Shown in pieces: positions 57,211 through 63,782 of a stretch of DNA of 64,000 nt. Position 1 is the first letter of the stretch, and every line of letters begins with the position of its first letter. The DNA lies in assembly GCF_001927245.1 (NCBI RefSeq), contig NZ_MJUX01000009.1, forward strand, positions 1 through 64,000, written 5' to 3'. Origin of the DNA: Acuticoccus yangtzensis (GTDB lineage: Bacteria; Pseudomonadota; Alphaproteobacteria; Rhizobiales; Amorphaceae). Under the pieces are notes generated by a model. That model did no database searches. It was not told the DNA's origin and saw nothing but the letters and a program-made list of their open reading frames with translations. A program made the translations under genes and the position numbers.

Positions 57211-57681
57211 TCAGAAGCCGGAGCGGACCTTCATGTGGGTGTGCGGGCGGCTCTCGTCGGCGTGCACGTGCGGGGCGTCTCCCTCGGCCACAGGCACCAG
57301 GGCGAGCGCGCCATGGGTGGTTCCCCGCTCCACGAAGAGCGCCTCGGCATAGCCCGACACATCGCCGACCGGCCCGCGCAGAACGGCCACCTCCAGCGAG
57401 GTGGAGTGGTCGATCGGCACGGACAGGGCCGCCACGGTCTGGTCGTGCCTGTCGAGCCGGCTCTGCGGCACACGCGCGGCGAGACCGCGCACCGACAGAT
57501 CCACCGCGCAACTGACGACGCCGAGGCACGCGGCCTCCGCGGGCGCCACCGCGCTTGCGGCCAGCCCCCTACGGAGCAGGTCGCGCACCGCCTCCGAGCG
57601 GTTCTGCCCGCCTTGGGCGCCGCGAAATGCGTCCACCATCGCAGCGAGGTCGGGGTCGAGGGTGATCGTCACGCGCTGCAT
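57211..57681 (-). CDS. NikR-like ribbon-helix-helix regulator lacking the canonical nickel ligands
   Basis: 156 residues from the ATG at 57681, chosen for a GGAGG site 5 bp before it. The N-terminal ribbon-helix-helix (MQRVTITLDPDLAAMVDAFR, QNRSEAVRDLLRRGLA) keeps Arg3, Thr5 and Thr7, which contact DNA in E. coli NikR. The ACT-like C-terminal domain is colinear with E. coli NikR without gaps around the metal site (SVPIDHSTSLEVAVLRGPVG and GTTHGALALVP). However, the nickel ligands His76, His87, His89 and Cys95 are replaced by Leu76, Ser87, Pro89 and Ser95. A His-containing tail (HVHADESRPHTH, residues 138-149) extends past the usual end. It is divergent from nikKMLQO, whose promoter carries a perfect NikR operator. 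Comparison is with the E. coli sequence from memory. Confidence 0.88.
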   Translation of the reverse strand: MQRVTITLDPDLAAMVDAFRGAQGGQNRSEAVRDLLRRGLAASAVAPAEAACLGVVSCAVDLSVRGLAARVPQSRLDRHDQTVAALSVPIDHSTSLEVAVLRGPVGDVSGYAEALFVERGTTHGALALVPVAEGDAPHVHADESRPHTHMKVRSGF

Positions 57682-57950
57682 GGAGGCCTCCGCTTTCATG
57701 CCGCCATCCTAACCCGGCCCGGCGCGTGAGGCATCAGCTTGGCACGGCCCATCGGCCTCCCGCTCCGCCGGTTGAGAGGGTGCACGGCCGGCGACTGCAC
57801 CGGCCTTCGGTGAGCTGGCCGTGGGGGCGGCCGGCCACGGGCGCGGCGGCCACGGACTGTGGTGGGCGGGCGCAGAATAGTCGCGACGGGGACCGACCGC
57901 GGGGCGGGCCGGCCACGCCATGACCGTTCGAGGGTGCGGTCGGCGGCAGG

Positions 57951-58272
57951 CGGTCGGCGGTCGGCGGTCGGCGGTCGGCGGTCGGCGGTCGGCGGTCGGC
58001 GGTCGGCGGTCGGCGGTCGGCGGTCGGCGGTCGGCGGTCGGCGGTCGGCGGTCGGCGGTCGGCGGTCGGCGGTCGGCGGTCGGCGGTCGGCGGTCGGCGG
58101 TCGGCGGTCGGCGGTCGGCGGTCGGCGGTCGGCGGTCGGCGGTCGGCGGTCGGCGGTCGGCGGTCGGCGGTCGGCGGTCGGCGGTCGGCGGTCGGCGGTC
58201 GGCGGTCGGCGGTCGGCGGTCGGCGGTCGGCGGTCGGCGGTCGGCGGTCGGCGGTCGGCGGTCGGCGGTCGG
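57951..58272. repeat. Heptanucleotide array, 46 perfect copies of CGGTCGG
   Basis: The 322 bp from 57951 to 58272 are 46 uninterrupted, identical copies of CGGTCGG. Variant units flank it: CGGTCGG at 57937, CGGCAGG at 57944 and CGGCAGA at 58273. Because seven is not a multiple of three, every frame reads the same heptapeptide cycle (RRSAVGG on plus, PPTADRR on minus) without stops, so long frames here are artefacts. It lies between the nikR start and the nikK operator. Confidence 0.97.
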
Positions 58273-58312
58273 CGGCAGAAAACCCGGCGCGGGGCATTGC
58301 GCAACGGGGTCA

Positions 58313-58340
58313 GTATGATAATTCAAACAAAATATCATAC
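58313..58340. promoter_or_regulatory. NikR operator before nikK
   Basis: GTATGA-N16-TCATAC, the exact NikR consensus of enterobacteria. The symmetry extends to 8-bp arms, GTATGATA and TATCATAC, around 12 AT-rich bases (ATTCAAACAAAA). It ends 16 bp before the nikK ATG and begins 40 bp after the heptamer array. Bound NikR here would block the nikKMLQO promoter. Confidence 0.92.
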
Positions 58341-58356
58341 CTTCCTGGACGGCCCG

Positions 58357-59124
58357 ATGATCGCCCCCCGCTGCCTCGCCCTCCTTCTTGCGAGCCCGTT
58401 CGCCGCGCTCCCCGCCGCAGCGCATTTCCAGGAGATCATCCCCAGCGCGGACGTCCTCACCGAAGGCGGCGAGGTAACGCTCGACCTCGTCTTCACGCAC
58501 CCGGTCGAAGGTGGGCCGGTGATGACGATGGAGCGGCCCGCGGCGGTCGGCGTCCTCGCGGGCGGGGTCGACACCGACCTCTCCGGTGCGCTGGAGGAGG
58601 CCCCGCGGGACGGCGCCGCCGCCTGGCGCATCACCCACACGCTGGAGGAGCCAGGCGCGGCCGTCTTCCACGTCACCCCGCAGCCTTATTGGGAGCCGGC
58701 CGAGGGCAAGTTCATCGTCCACTACGCCAAGGTAATCGTCGATGCCTACGCGTCCGGCGAGGGGTGGGACGAACTCGTGGGCCTGCCGGTCGAGATCATG
58801 CCGCTGACCCGGCCGACCGGCGTGTGGGCGGGCAACGTCTTCACCGGAATTGTGACGAAGAACGGCGCGCCGGTGCCCTTCGCCGAGGTGGAGGTGGAAT
58901 TCGTCAACGACGGCGCCGTCACCCCGCCCAACGACGCCTTCATCACCCAGGTCATCAAGGCCGACGCGAACGGCACATTCACCTACGCCATGCCCTTCCC
59001 CGCCTGGTGGGGCTTCGCCGCACTTGTGGAGGCCGACGCGCCGATGACTTCGCCGGAGGGCGACAGCGTCCCGGTGGAAGAGGGCGGCCTCATCTGGGTG
59101 AAGGCGACGGCGGCCGGCGGATAA
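58357..59124 (+). CDS. nikK: NikK-like periplasmic component of the nickel/cobalt ECF importer (DUF4198)
   Basis: 255 residues from the ATG at 58357; an earlier in-frame ATG at 58315 lies inside the operator and is unlikely. The signal peptide (CLALLLASPFAALPAAAHF) would leave His near the mature N-terminus (HFQEIIPSADVL), a feature of NikK proteins. Other family blocks are VFTHPVEGGPVMTMERP, NVFTGIVTKNGAPVPFAEVE and the aromatic YAMPFPAWWGFAAL. It probably binds or hands over the metal outside the membrane. First gene of nikKMLQO. Confidence 0.9.
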   Translation: MIAPRCLALLLASPFAALPAAAHFQEIIPSADVLTEGGEVTLDLVFTHPVEGGPVMTMERPAAVGVLAGGVDTDLSGALEEAPRDGAAAWRITHTLEEPGAAVFHVTPQPYWEPAEGKFIVHYAKVIVDAYASGEGWDELVGLPVEIMPLTRPTGVWAGNVFTGIVTKNGAPVPFAEVEVEFVNDGAVTPPNDAFITQVIKADANGTFTYAMPFPAWWGFAALVEADAPMTSPEGDSVPVEEGGLIWVKATAAGG

Positions 59125-59126
59125 TC

Positions 59127-59735
59127 ATGCACATCCCGGACGGTATCCTTTCGGCCCCGGTGCTTGTGGGCGGCGCAGTGGCCGCGGCGGCCGGGGTCGG
59201 CCTGGCGCTGAGGCGGATCGACGAGCGCGCCATTCCGCGCGTCGCCATCCTCGCCGCGGTATTCTTCGCCGGATCGTTGATCGCCGTGCCGGTGGGGCCG
59301 TCCAGCGTGCATCTCGTCTTCGGCGGGCTGATGGGGGTGATGCTGGGGCTCGGCATCTTCCCGGCGGTGCTGGTGGCACTGGTGCTGCAGGCGGTGCTCT
59401 TCGGCTTCGGCGGGCTGACGACGCTGGGCGTGAACACGTTCAACATCGCGCTGCCCGGCGCGCTGCTGGGCGGCCTGCTGGGGCCGATGATCAGGCGCGC
59501 CTCCCCGCCCGGCGCCGCCGCCCTCGCGGCCGTCGCCGGGGCGGGATCCGTCGTCGGCAACGGCGTCCTCGTGGCGCTGACGCTGCGGCTCTCCTCGCCC
59601 GACTATGCGCCGGTCGCCAGCGTCGTCGTCGCCACCTATCTGCCGCTCGTGCTGGTCGAGGGCGCGATCACCGCCTTCGCCGCCGGGTTTCTGGCGCGGG
59701 TGAAGCCGGACGCGCTGAGCCCGCAACTGACATGA
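59127..59735 (+). CDS. nikM: Nickel/cobalt ECF transporter S component (NikM/CbiM)
   Basis: 202 residues with six or seven helices. The N-terminus MHIPDGILSAPVLVGG is the hallmark: the free amine of Met1 and His2 enter the membrane and chelate the metal in CbiM/NikM structures. VGPSSVHLVFGGLMGVMLG supplies the His-containing helix. The ATG is 2 bp after the nikK stop, and the end overlaps nikL by 4 bp. Confidence 0.94.
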   Translation: MHIPDGILSAPVLVGGAVAAAAGVGLALRRIDERAIPRVAILAAVFFAGSLIAVPVGPSSVHLVFGGLMGVMLGLGIFPAVLVALVLQAVLFGFGGLTTLGVNTFNIALPGALLGGLLGPMIRRASPPGAAALAAVAGAGSVVGNGVLVALTLRLSSPDYAPVASVVVATYLPLVLVEGAITAFAAGFLARVKPDALSPQLT

Positions 59736-60367
59736 TCCGCGCGCTCGTTCTCCTCGCGGGCCTCCTCGCCGGGACCGCCGCCGCCGAGGCGCATGCGCTG
59801 CGCGTCTTCGCCAGGGTCGAGGGGGCGACGGTGTCGGGATACGGCTTCTTCATCGGCGGCGGGCGCCCGCATGGCGCGGCGTGGACGGCGACGATGGAGG
59901 GCACGCCCCTGGCGAGCGGCGAGACCGATGCGGACGGCCGCTTCGCCTTCGCCGCACCGGCCGAGGTCACGGGTGCCGTGGCGGTGACGATCGACACCCG
60001 CGAGGGGCACCGCGCCACCTCCACCCTGGCGCCGCAGCGCTTCGCCGCCGCCGCACCCGCCGCGGCACGGGGCGACGGGGCGGGTGCGGCGTCCTCACCG
60101 GCGGCAGCGCCGACAACGGACGCAGCGTCGGACGAAGCGCCCATGGAGCCATCGCCAGCACCCGCCGGCCTCTCACCGGAGGCCGGCCCGTCGCCGGAGG
60201 CTCTCGCGGGCATGGTGGAGCGGGCCGTGGCGCATGCCGTCGCCCCGCTGGAAGAGCGCATCGTGGCGCTCGACGCGCGGCTGAAGTTCACCGACATCCT
60301 GTCCGGCCTCTTTCTCATCCTCGGCCTCGCCGGAATGGGGCTGTGGGCGCTCGGCCGCCGCCGATGA
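59732..60367 (+). CDS. nikL: NikL-like accessory membrane component
   Basis: 211 residues. An N-terminal signal/anchor ends at AEAHALRVFARVEGATVSGY, with a His close to the mature N-terminus as in NikL. A beta-type periplasmic domain (GRPHGAAWTATMEGTPLASG, ETDADGRFAFAAP) is followed by an Ala/Pro/Ser-rich linker, a short amphipathic helix and a single C-terminal membrane helix (DILSGLFLILGLAGMGLWAL) with a basic end. It is thought to assist NikM in metal loading. It overlaps nikM and nikQ by 4 bp each. Confidence 0.85.
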   Translation: MIRALVLLAGLLAGTAAAEAHALRVFARVEGATVSGYGFFIGGGRPHGAAWTATMEGTPLASGETDADGRFAFAAPAEVTGAVAVTIDTREGHRATSTLAPQRFAAAAPAAARGDGAGAASSPAAAPTTDAASDEAPMEPSPAPAGLSPEAGPSPEALAGMVERAVAHAVAPLEERIVALDARLKFTDILSGLFLILGLAGMGLWALGRRR

Positions 60368-61086
60368 CGCCGTCGATGATGCTGCCGCAGGATCCGCGCC
60401 TGCGCCTCCTCACCGCCTTCGGCGCGGTGCTGCTCGTGTCGCAGATCGGCGGGCTCGTGACGGCGCTGTCGGCGCTCGCCGCCGCCGCCGCTTTGACGCT
60501 CGCCCAGCCGCAGCGGCCGGGCTGGCGCCGCCTCGTCCATCTGGAAGGCTTCCTCATCCTCCTCTTCGTGTCGCTGCCCTTCACCGTGCCGGGCGCGCCG
60601 GTCGCCTCGCTGGGCCCCCTCACCGTGTCCGCCGAGGGGCTGCTGCTGGCGGCCACGCTCGGCGCCAAGGTGTCGGCCTCGGTGCTCGTCCTCACGCTGC
60701 TTCTGGGCGGGCTGGAACCGGCCCGGCTCGGCGCCGCCCTCGCCGCGCTGCGCGTGCCCGAAACGCTGGTGCGCCTGTTCGTCGCCACTGCGCGCTACCG
60801 CGTCCTCATCGGCGACGAGGCGCGGCGCCTGGGCGAGGCGATGCACGCCCGCGGCTTCACCCCGCGCACCGATCGGCACACCCTGCGCACCTACGGCTGG
60901 CTGATCGGCATGCTGCTGGTGCGCGCGCTGGAACGGGCCGAGCGCGTGGAAGAGGCGATGCGCTGCCGCGGCTATACCGGCCGCATCCCGCGCCTCGCCG
61001 CGCCGCGCCCGGCCGCGCGCGAGATCGCCGCCGCCGGGCTCATCGTCGCCTCCGCGGCGGCGCTGCTGATGGTCGACCGGCTGTGA
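60364..61086 (+). CDS. nikQ: ECF transporter transmembrane coupling protein (NikQ/CbiQ)
   Basis: 240 residues with about five helices. The C-terminal half has the two coupling helices with Ala-Arg-Gly-type motifs: RLGEAMHARGFTPRT and RVEEAMRCRGYTGRIPRL, which transmit ATPase movement to the S component. The ATG at 60364 overlaps nikL, and its stop overlaps the GTG of nikO. Confidence 0.92.
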   Translation: MTPSMMLPQDPRLRLLTAFGAVLLVSQIGGLVTALSALAAAAALTLAQPQRPGWRRLVHLEGFLILLFVSLPFTVPGAPVASLGPLTVSAEGLLLAATLGAKVSASVLVLTLLLGGLEPARLGAALAALRVPETLVRLFVATARYRVLIGDEARRLGEAMHARGFTPRTDRHTLRTYGWLIGMLLVRALERAERVEEAMRCRGYTGRIPRLAAPRPAAREIAAAGLIVASAAALLMVDRL

Positions 61087-61877
61087 GCGCGCTCCTGCGG
61101 CTCGACGAGGTGACGGTCGCGCGTGACGGGCGCACCGTGCTGGAAGGGGCGAGCCTCGTCCTGGACCCGGGTGAGCGGGTCGCCATCGTCGGCCCCAACG
61201 GCGCGGGCAAGACGACGCTGATGCGCACCATCGTCGGGCTCACCCCCGCCACGTCCGGGCGGGTGACGCTGTTCGGCACGGTGTGCCGCGAGGAGCGCGA
61301 CTTCCGGCCGCTTCGCCCGCGCATCGGCGTCCTGTTCCAGGACAGCGACGACCAGCTCTTCTGCCCCAGCGTGGTGGAGGACGTCGCCTTCGGTCCGCTG
61401 AACGCAGGCGCCAGTCCGGCCGCTGCCGAAGCCGCCGCGCGCGCAACTCTCGGCCATCTCGGCATCGCCCATCTCGGTGAGCGGCTGACGCACCGCCTGT
61501 CCGGCGGCGAGAAGCGCCTCGTTTGCCTCGCCGGACTTCTGGCGATGACGCCCGACGTCCTGCTTCTCGACGAGCCGACCAACGGTGTCGACACCGCCAA
61601 CGGCGCCCGGCTGCGGGCGGCGCTGGCCGCCTTTCCGGGGGCGATGCTGATCGTTTCGCACGACGCGGCGTTCGTGGCGGGCCTTGCGACACGCGCCCTG
61701 GCGCTGGAGCACGGCCGGTTGCGGCCGGCGACGATCCACACCCACGCCCACCCGCATGCGCACGTGCATCCGGGCGATGCGAGCCACGCCCACCAGGCGG
61801 CAGGCGCGGCGGACGGACAAACCGCCTCCGAAGCCGCAAGGAACGCGGGCGGGTCGCCGACCGATCGCCGCGCCTGA
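61083..61877 (+). CDS. nikO: ECF transporter ATPase (NikO/CbiO) with His-rich C-terminus
   Basis: 264 residues from a GTG at 61083. Walker A is GPNGAGKT, the Q-loop region VLFQDSDDQLFCPSVVEDVA is typical of metal ECF ATPases, the signature is LSGGEKRLVCLAGLL and Walker B VLLLDEPTNGVD. After the catalytic domain comes a tail with nine His between about residues 217 and 239 (IHTHAHPHAHVHPGDASHAH), which may bind the incoming cation inside the cell. Last gene of the operon. Confidence 0.94.
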   Translation: MSALLRLDEVTVARDGRTVLEGASLVLDPGERVAIVGPNGAGKTTLMRTIVGLTPATSGRVTLFGTVCREERDFRPLRPRIGVLFQDSDDQLFCPSVVEDVAFGPLNAGASPAAAEAAARATLGHLGIAHLGERLTHRLSGGEKRLVCLAGLLAMTPDVLLLDEPTNGVDTANGARLRAALAAFPGAMLIVSHDAAFVAGLATRALALEHGRLRPATIHTHAHPHAHVHPGDASHAHQAAGAADGQTASEAARNAGGSPTDRRA

Positions 61878-61930: not shown

Positions 61931-63010
61931 CTACTGCGCGGCGCCGTGGCCGTGGCCACCGCCATGTGAGCCCGCCCCTCCGGCGCCGTGCCCATGCGCG
62001 TGGGCGGGCGCCGCACCGGCGCCGATCGGCGCCACCGCCAGCGGCACCGTCAGCGTGCCGGCGTGCTCGAACGTCAACGTCACGTCCAAGGTGTCACCGG
62101 CCGCGGGTGAACGGGCGAGATCCATGAACATGATGTGATAGCCGCCCGGCGCCAGGGTGACCGAGCCGCCGGCGGGGATTTCCAGCCCGCCTTCGATCGG
62201 CTGCATCATCATCATCCCGTTGGTGACGGCCATCTGATGCACCTCGGCCCGGCCGGCGAAGTCGGCGCTGACGGCGACGAGCCTGTCGGGCTCGGAACCG
62301 GTGTTCGTCAGCGTCATGTAGCCGCCGCCGACCGACGCGCCGGGGGGCGGCTGGCGCATCCAAGCCGTGTCGACCGCCATGGTCGAGGCGGCCGCTTGCG
62401 GGGCCGGTTCGTGCGACGTGCCGTGGTGCGCAGCGTCGGCCGCCTGCGCCACCTGCGACGCATCGACGACGGTCAGCACCGGTGCAGGGTGGGCAAGGTC
62501 ATGCGGATCCTGCCCGGGCGCGGCGACATCGGACCACGAGATGGCGCCGTCCGCACAGGTCTGCACCACCTTGAACGGCAGCACGGTGCCCGGTTCCACC
62601 CCGGTCACGTGTCCCTGAAAGGCGAACTCGTCGGACGAAGCGTCCGGCAGATTGCCGCCGCTCCAGCGGATTTCGGTCACGCCGGAGGCGACGCTCTCGC
62701 CGCGCGACGCATCAGGCGCGGCGTCGTCCGCAGTCGAGACGTCCAGCGTCCAGCCTGGCTTGGGCATCGGCTTCACGGCGGCGAAGCCCTCCGGCACCGT
62801 CACGGCGACGGCGGTGGTGGGCTGGCCGTCGCAGCCATGGGGCACGCGCAGGACGGCCTTGAAGGTGGCACCGGCGGGCGCCTGCGCGACCACGAAAGAG
62901 ACGTGCGCGCTGGCGCCCGTTGCGCCGACGAGCGCCGTGCCGGCGACGAATAGAGGAAGGGTGAGCGCGAGCGCCGTCGCGCCGCGCAACGCGCGGGTCA
63001 TATGAGGCAT
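61931..63010 (-). CDS. YcnI-like (DUF1775) and PCu(A)C copper chaperone fusion
   Basis: 359 residues, periplasmic (signal ending near ASA-HV). Residues about 35-190 are a YcnI/DUF1775 domain that starts with the copper-binding His right after the signal (AHVSFVVAQAPAGATFKAVL, RVPHGCDGQPTTAVAVTVPE). A His/Ala-rich linker follows. Residues about 215-335 are PCu(A)C, with the H-x-M...M...H-x-M copper site in EVHQMAVTNGMMMMQPIEGG and PGGYHIMFMDL. The end is His/Gly-rich (HAHGHGAGGAGSHGGGHGHG). Both domains bind copper and PCu(A)C supplies oxidases; the fusion puts them in one chain. ATG at 63010 has AGGA upstream. It follows the DUF2946-like gene by 57 bp. Confidence 0.93.
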   Translation of the reverse strand: MPHMTRALRGATALALTLPLFVAGTALVGATGASAHVSFVVAQAPAGATFKAVLRVPHGCDGQPTTAVAVTVPEGFAAVKPMPKPGWTLDVSTADDAAPDASRGESVASGVTEIRWSGGNLPDASSDEFAFQGHVTGVEPGTVLPFKVVQTCADGAISWSDVAAPGQDPHDLAHPAPVLTVVDASQVAQAADAAHHGTSHEPAPQAAASTMAVDTAWMRQPPPGASVGGGYMTLTNTGSEPDRLVAVSADFAGRAEVHQMAVTNGMMMMQPIEGGLEIPAGGSVTLAPGGYHIMFMDLARSPAAGDTLDVTLTFEHAGTLTVPLAVAPIGAGAAPAHAHGHGAGGAGSHGGGHGHGAAQ

Positions 63011-63067
63011 CGATCTGTCCTGAATGTCGGTTGAGGGCCGCCCGGTAAAGGCGGATGCGGTTCCGTT

Positions 63068-63451
63068 TCAGGACAGCGGCGGGGCTCTGATGCGCGGGCG
63101 CCCGGCCCAGTCATGGCCGGCGATGCGGACGGTGAGCCCCGGCAGACGCGCGGCCAGAGGCTGCTCGTCCGGAGGGGCGACATCGGGCAGCTCCGGCGCG
63201 ATGGCCACCGCATAACAGAGGCAGCAGGAGGCCGCGTCGATCGCGGTGCGGGCCTTGTCGTCCGGCGCGGGAGCGGGTGCGGCGCCCCAGCAGATGACGC
63301 CTTGATCGGCCTCGGCCATCGCCATGGAGGGGACGAAGAGGTTGAACAGCGCGAGGACGATCCCCAGCGCCGCCAGCGGCCCCCTCAACGCGCGCAGGAC
63401 GGCGAGCCCGCCTCGCCCTTCGGGGCGGCGGACCGTGACCTCACGCGGCAA
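63068..63451 (-). CDS. DUF2946-like membrane-anchored protein, possibly copper related
   Basis: 127 residues if the TTG at 63451 is the start. The frame is open much further (ATGs at 63631 and 63736), but the part before 63451 has many A-ending codons unlike this genome, and the translation looks non-coding. An N-terminal hydrophobic segment (LRGPLAALGIVLALFNLFVP) is followed by SMAMAEADQGVICWGAAPAP and a SCCLCYAV cysteine cluster, then a Pro-rich end. Such small proteins often occur with YcnI/PCu(A)C and copper uptake genes. The protein presumably faces the periplasm. The start is uncertain and the function unproved. Confidence 0.65.
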   Translation of the reverse strand: MPREVTVRRPEGRGGLAVLRALRGPLAALGIVLALFNLFVPSMAMAEADQGVICWGAAPAPAPDDKARTAIDAASCCLCYAVAIAPELPDVAPPDEQPLAARLPGLTVRIAGHDWAGRPRIRAPPLS

Positions 63452-63782
63452 GGGTGGCTGCGTTCCGATGATGACCCTCGATCGGCTGACAAGGCCCGCG
63501 CCTGCACCGCCCGCCTCGGCGACGCGCGCTGCTGGATGTGTTCGTCTTATTGCGGCTGGGAGGCGCCCTGTCCACCCGCCTGCCGCCTGCGTGATGCCGG
63601 TGCAACGGCGCAGGGTGTGGCCGCGTCGCATCACGCATTTCGTGTGGATGGGCGATCGCCGTGGGGTCCCCCCAAGGTAAACTTTTGTTTTCCTTTTCAG
63701 CGTCAACGTGTTCCATCGGCCCACGGATCCGGGCACGGCGTGACGGGCCTGCAGTGGGCGCGCTATTCAGGGATGATCGACG
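63452..63782. promoter_or_regulatory. Divergent region before the DUF2946-like and DUF2934 genes
   Basis: Within these 331 bp, 63675-63715 is clearly AT-rich (GGTAAACTTTTGTTTTCC, then TTTTCAGCGTCAACG) and is the best candidate promoter region. The rest shows no gene. If the DUF2946-like gene starts at 63631 or 63736 instead, part of this region would be coding. Confidence 0.45.

Follow-up and report, generated by a model that had tools for sequence, protein, structure and literature searches.

A NikR homolog of Acuticoccus yangtzensis without the His3Cys nickel site and with a candidate all-histidine sensor site

The window, by which we mean the entire stretch of 64,000 nucleotides of A. yangtzensis DNA analyzed here, encodes a NikR-like protein that lacks all four canonical nickel ligands and is divergently arranged to a nickel importer operon. 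On balance, we favor the reading that this protein is a working NikR-type repressor of nikKMLQO in which nickel sensing would have moved to an all-histidine tail and/or to a site built from H79, H92 and H123. Prospects seem about even for the more specific proposal that the metal sensor migrated, i.e., that the His3Cys site was abandoned and its role passed to a clamp of histidines only in the C-terminal tail, whereas metal, operator and target genes stayed unchanged. The protein is most likely still a repressor of nickel uptake, a role that we infer from its sequence and genomic setting.

Results

A NikR-Type Protein with Four Replaced Ligands

The nikR-like gene (Table 1) is preceded by a GGAGG motif located 5 bases upstream of its start at position 57681. 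Its product possesses the layout of the NikR family, a ribbon-helix-helix domain (RHH_1, PF01402; 30.7 bits, cut-off 20.5) followed by a NikR_C domain (PF08753; 51.2-52.3 bits, cut-off 22). It passed the NCBIfam NikR equivalog model NF002815 (118.2 bits; cut-off 83) and failed the equivalog model TIGR02793 (nikR; 123.8 bits, cut-off 175.45).

Table 1. Features of the nikR-nikKMLQO region; positions are those of the window.
Feature	Position	Strand	Basis or remark
nikR-like gene, 156 amino acids, without His3Cys nickel site	57211..57681	-	ORF, Pfam/NCBIfam profiles, alignment
Ribbon-helix-helix DNA-binding domain, residues 3-40, with R3, T5, T7, E30, D34	57562..57675	-	RHH_1
NikR_C domain, residues 54-128	57298..57522	-	PF08753
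Codon 76: Leu; His in E. coli NikR	57454..57456	-	alignment
Codon 79: His, invariant in clade A	57445..57447	-	clade alignment
Codon 87: Ser; His in E. coli NikR; Ser in 49/49 clade A loci	57421..57423	-	alignment
Codon 89: Pro; His in E. coli NikR; Pro in 49/49 clade A loci	57415..57417	-	alignment
Codon 92: His, invariant in clade A	57406..57408	-	clade alignment
Codon 95: Ser; Cys in E. coli NikR	57397..57399	-	alignment
Codon 123: His, invariant in clade A	57313..57315	-	clade alignment
C-terminal HxH...HxH tail, residues 138-149	57235..57270	-	H138/H140/H147/H149 in 48/48 distinct clade A proteins
Exact palindromic NikR-type operator GTATGA-N16-TCATAC, 28 bases	58313..58340		pattern match
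nikK-like gene (DUF4198), first of importer operon	58357..59124	+	PF10670, 187 bits
nikM/cbiM-like gene (start approximate)	59124..59735	+	PF01891; NF004903
nikL-like gene	59732..60367	+	NF058648 (NikL), 150.9 bits, cut-off 100
nikQ/cbiQ-like gene (start approximate)	60361..61086	+	PF02361; TIGR02454
nikO/cbiO-like ATPase gene	61083..61877	+	PF00005; TIGR01166 below its cut-off

A phmmer alignment pairs residues 1-130 of the protein with residues 1-130 of Escherichia coli NikR (PDB 1q5v) without a single gap. At the four positions of the His3Cys nickel site by which the family is recognized, H76 is exchanged for Leu, H87 for Ser, H89 for Pro and C95 for Ser. R3, T5 and T7, the DNA-contact residues, are identical in both proteins. 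These data bear out the initial annotation, which had described the gap-free alignment of the C-terminal domain, the four replacements and the unchanged residues Arg3, Thr5 and Thr7. The outcome that it had named as its own refutation, true ligands that are shifted elsewhere and conserved, was looked for and is ruled out by the gap-free alignment. According to a review (PMC7055735), the square-planar site of E. coli NikR is formed by His87, His89 and Cys95 together with His76 of the neighboring subunit, and E30 and D34 belong to a second metal site. Both E30 and D34 are kept in the window protein and in all 49 loci of the group described below.

The Ligand Replacements Are Fixed in a Large Clade

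To place the protein among its relatives, we compared 141 NikR loci. When 397 genomes of the order were searched at the protein level, 115 gave matches, and all listed places were read with the exception of two weak ones (G386 and G297). A scan of a genome collection added 23 further loci, ranked by NCBI as 12 Hyphomicrobiales (Ancylobacter, Breoghania, Ahrensia and others) and 11 Rhodobacterales (Maritimibacter, Gemmobacter, Marivivens, Paenirhodobacter/Sinirhodobacter, Rhodovulum and others), and one more clade A locus came from a plasmid of Roseomonas marmotae. A 55-amino-acid entry (L143) and two duplicates (L010 and L144) were dropped. The 141 loci comprise 49 members of clade A, to which the window protein belongs, 74 canonical loci with all four ligands, seven members of clade B, six of clade C and five of group D.

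Clade A is defined by the residues x-S-P-[ASTM] at positions 76/87/89/95, and its 49 loci, which come from Hyphomicrobiales, Rhodobacterales and the one Roseomonas plasmid, encode 48 distinct proteins; the identical proteins L011 and L045 possibly represent one species counted twice. S87 and P89 are invariant and C95 is always replaced (49/49), and H76 remains in 10 of the 49 loci. Hence, the replacement at positions 87, 89 and 95 is the step shared by the clade, and position 76 is variable. The alignment of homologs that had been proposed as a check on the initial annotation thus finds three of the four ligands replaced throughout the clade. Because the changes are fixed in such a large clade, chance or sequencing error can be ruled out as their cause.

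In two phylogenetic trees (132 and 138 rows), which were calculated from 123 columns after exclusion of the trait columns and merging of identical rows, the clade A proteins (44 distinct rows) are set apart from all other rows by a branch with 100/100 support. The 138-row tree did not include clade C, L135, L168, L169 and the fragment L170. Since the columns are few and the deep forks are weak, the sister group of clade A cannot be read from these trees. To look for clade A outside its order, a class-wide draw of 385 genomes was searched; matches were obtained in 18, of which only the window's own genome has a clade A member; despite this null result, the collection scan had recovered the 11 members from the Rhodobacterales. 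Closer to home, seven congeners and two further family members were searched and found to be without nikR and without nikK; the cassette was therefore either gained in A. yangtzensis or lost in its relatives.

Among 39 close pairs of clade A genes, 30 gave a usable dS, and the dN/dS values of these pairs, which overlap in their members, have a median of 0.086 and a maximum of 0.216. As judged from these substitution patterns, clade A is under purifying selection. The low dN/dS values of the clade and the conservation of the proteins over their full length rule out that the gene is a pseudogene.

A NikR-Type Operator and a NikKMLQO Importer Operon

The NikR family is also recognized by a palindromic operator next to nickel uptake genes, and such a site is present in the window at positions 58313-58340, where it ends 16 bases before the start of nikK. 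Its sequence, GTATGA-N16-TCATAC, corresponds to the NikR operator consensus. The perfect operator reported by the initial annotation is thus real, and it is the sole exact copy in the 5.04-Mb, 96% complete genome, where allowing one mismatch revealed no additional site and allowing two revealed eight; a reversed control pattern had 11 matches at up to two mismatches.

Exact operators accompany 36 of the 49 clade A loci (39 when one mismatch is allowed), 18 of the 74 canonical loci and one of the six clade C loci; none was found at the seven clade B and five group D loci. These counts are lower bounds because the flanks that were read measure between a few hundred bases and 8 kb, and in 13 clade A loci no exact operator was found within them. 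All 36 exact clade A operators lie within approximately 650 bases of the nikR start. The site in the window is positioned 631 bases upstream of nikR, compared with 65-222 bases in the other clade A loci that have an exact upstream site. A scan of positions 57600-58500 for promoters and terminators found none. The region between nikR and the operator (57936-58275) carries an array in which the 7-base unit GCGGTCG is repeated in tandem about 49 times with 98% matches, and a 21-base piece of this array has no other occurrence in the genome.

Divergently from nikR, an importer operon occupies positions 58357-61877 in the order DUF4198-CbiM-NikL-CbiQ-CbiO, which equals the K-M-L-Q-O order. NikK relatives are encoded near nikR in 33 of the 49 clade A, 14 of the 74 canonical and four of the five group D loci. 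The nickel operon is followed by copper-type genes (61931-63736), among them a fusion of DUF1775 with PCu(A)C and a DUF2946 match below its cut-off.

Seven Invariant Histidines and a Conserved Tail

The initial annotation had pointed to His79, His92, His123 and a His-rich tail at residues 138-149 as possible elements of a different metal site, and had offered the sensing of another metal and metal-independent repression as further readings. The named histidines are present in the window protein. None of the 48 distinct clade A proteins lacks any of H79, H92, H123, H138, H140, H147 and H149, which are encoded by a mixture of both His codons, and R3, T5, E30 and D34 are likewise invariant. The combination of replaced residues 87, 89 and 95 in 49/49 loci with seven invariant histidines leads us to favor the reading of a different site over the other two.

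A strict tail pattern, HxH-(3-8)-HxH-x-[KRHEQ]-[VI]-xxx-[FL], which was written after clade A had been seen, matches 48 of the 49 clade A loci and none of the 74 canonical, seven clade B, five group D and six clade C loci; the one exception in clade A (L054) carries a long insertion. His-rich tails as such are common: the loose form HxH...HxH is found in 49/49 clade A, 25/74 canonical, 5/5 group D, 0/7 clade B and 0/6 clade C loci. In five canonical loci, including L036, all four ligands occur together with H79, H92, H123 and the loose tail; the elements of the proposed site can therefore coexist with the old one. In five other NikR homologs (L008, L127, L128, L132 and L134), position 87 is occupied by Gln or Arg and the His-rich tail is very long, the proteins having 261-267 amino acids; four of the five are encoded near a NikK relative.

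Ligand Loss Without a Visible New Site

Clade B provides the main reason to consider that the window protein might not need a metal at all. Its seven members (L009, L102, L104, L113, L114, L115 and L130), all from genomes of a single family, have R/Q/L at position 76, Q/A at 87, P at 89 and V/R/F at 95; they possess neither H79 nor H92 nor a His tail, and H123 is present in four of them. Genes for CbiO-, CbiQ- or NikL-like components of nickel/cobalt ECF importers are found in five of the seven loci. Similarly, the NikR homolog L167 (L167:1501-1905) carries R, Q, P and Y at the ligand positions and none of the seven histidines, and an exact operator (L167:1935-1962) precedes a gene for a HupE/UreJ protein (169 bits; cut-off 23). 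Ligand loss need therefore not be accompanied by a visible new site. By analogy, S87 and P89 together with residue 76 might fix the core of the clade A protein in a shape that resembles the nickel-bound form; expression of the importer would then be set by the protein level or by autoregulation, and the His tail might store nickel or have another role. P89, which is carried by clades A and B, L132 and L167, requires four changes on the tree, a pattern that fits such a function. An AU test did not reject a joint clade of A and B (p 0.108), even though the tree separates them, so that P89 in both clades may have a single origin; we do not claim that clades A and B are independent. Metal-independent repression is further opposed by the invariance of seven histidines, four of them in a short tail, in 48 distinct proteins, and a repressor blind to nickel shortage would presumably control an importer poorly. 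We regard it as unlikely, but the findings on clade B keep it the main rival of a relocated nickel site.

Nickel might also be bound close to its old place, at a shifted core site built from H79, H92 and H123, to which the tail would be accessory. H79 and H92 occur in 49/49 clade A loci, compared with 63 and 28, respectively, of 75 canonical proteins (E. coli NikR included), and position 79 should lie about one helical turn from position 76. H123 is present in 35 of these 75 proteins, and the three histidines could have a structural role, since they are found in canonical NikR as well. The histidines of the tail show the same invariance as the three in the core, and a site confined to the latter seems to us a decidedly doubtful proposition.

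Nickel as the Probable Metal and NikR Mostly as a Single Copy

The sensing of a different metal such as cobalt, zinc or copper would fit with the chemistry of an all-histidine site, which differs from that of His3Cys, and with the CbiM, CbiQ and CbiO models, which are common to cobalt systems. The neighborhood of the clade A genes speaks against this reading of the initial annotation and renders it very improbable. A comparative study (PMC2667541) assigned the NikKMLQO set to nickel and counts NikK and NikL among the nickel components. Genes for SBP_bac_5 proteins are located beside the operator in the clade A loci L018, L026, L032 and L062 (in L062 as a frame of only 169 amino acids), and the two tested proteins (L018 and L062) are NikA-like, with scores that fall short of the cut-off of the NikA model. 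The clade A gene of R. marmotae (L063) adjoins nikKMLQO, and genes for a urea transporter and urease are found a few kilobases away. The A. yangtzensis genome contains a match to the urease alpha subunit (E 1.9e-56) and no match to a NiFe hydrogenase. Of 25 further clade A genomes, 24 have a strong urease match and one (G192) a weak one. Urease matches also occur in the seven congeners without nikR, and the presence of urease is therefore non-discriminating.

A second, canonical NikR is encoded on another R. marmotae plasmid beside nikABC (L064); the ligand-less and the canonical protein of this bacterium carry identical annotations. This pair could suggest that the ligand-less proteins are partner subunits or degenerate paralogs of canonical NikR, an idea to which we give hardly any credence in view of the low dN/dS values, the single NikR_C match in each of 23/23 clade A genomes, the single full-length NikR in each of the 25 further genomes (at most nine candidates scored per genome; an extra match in G084 is a 55-residue fragment), and the window genome (5.04 Mb, 96% complete), where this gene is the only NikR_C match and a partnership with a canonical NikR is rejected.

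Discussion

The window protein resembles E. coli NikR (PDB 1q5v, 2hzv) in its ribbon-helix-helix and NikR_C domains, in an ungapped stretch of 130 residues, in R3/T5/T7 and E30/D34, and in the half-sites of its operator. It differs from the E. coli protein by the absence of H76, H87, H89 and C95, by the conserved HxH...HxH tail and by its location next to an ECF importer. With Helicobacter pylori NikR, it shares the domain layout but not the square-planar sites formed by His88, His99, His101 and Cys107 in that protein. Canonical alphaproteobacterial NikR proteins such as L036 and L064 have the same domains but keep all four ligands; L064 is accompanied by exactly the same operator half-sites as in the window, and L036 combines H79, H92 and H123 with a loosely similar tail. 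The five-gene set of the window, K-M-L-Q-O, is that of the Brucella ure2 locus, where NikKMLQO was reported to support urease activity (PMC2868824); nikR does not occur in the main text of that paper. His3Cys square-planar sites have been described as conserved among NikR homologs. A full-text search, outside of which most subscription papers lie, gave no paper on a ligand-less NikR clade among the matches listed, as judged from titles and the beginnings of abstracts.

A relocated nickel site would account for these features in the following way. The His3Cys site in the metal-binding domain would have been dismantled, and the DNA-reading parts, the operator and the nickel-related targets would have been retained. 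Nickel would be sensed at an all-histidine site formed by the C-terminal HxH-turn-HxH tail, which perhaps closes on H79, H92 and H123. Loading with nickel would favor the form of the protein that grips GTATGA-N16-TCATAC and would thus switch nikKMLQO off, and nickel shortage would release the repressor from its operator.

Automatic annotation calls proteins of this type nickel-responsive NikR from homology alone, as seen in R. marmotae. NikR serves as a model for the switching of a repressor by metal ions, and clade A, in which target genes and operator are kept and the site is missing, offers a case for asking how a sensor might exchange its metal site and still perform its function.
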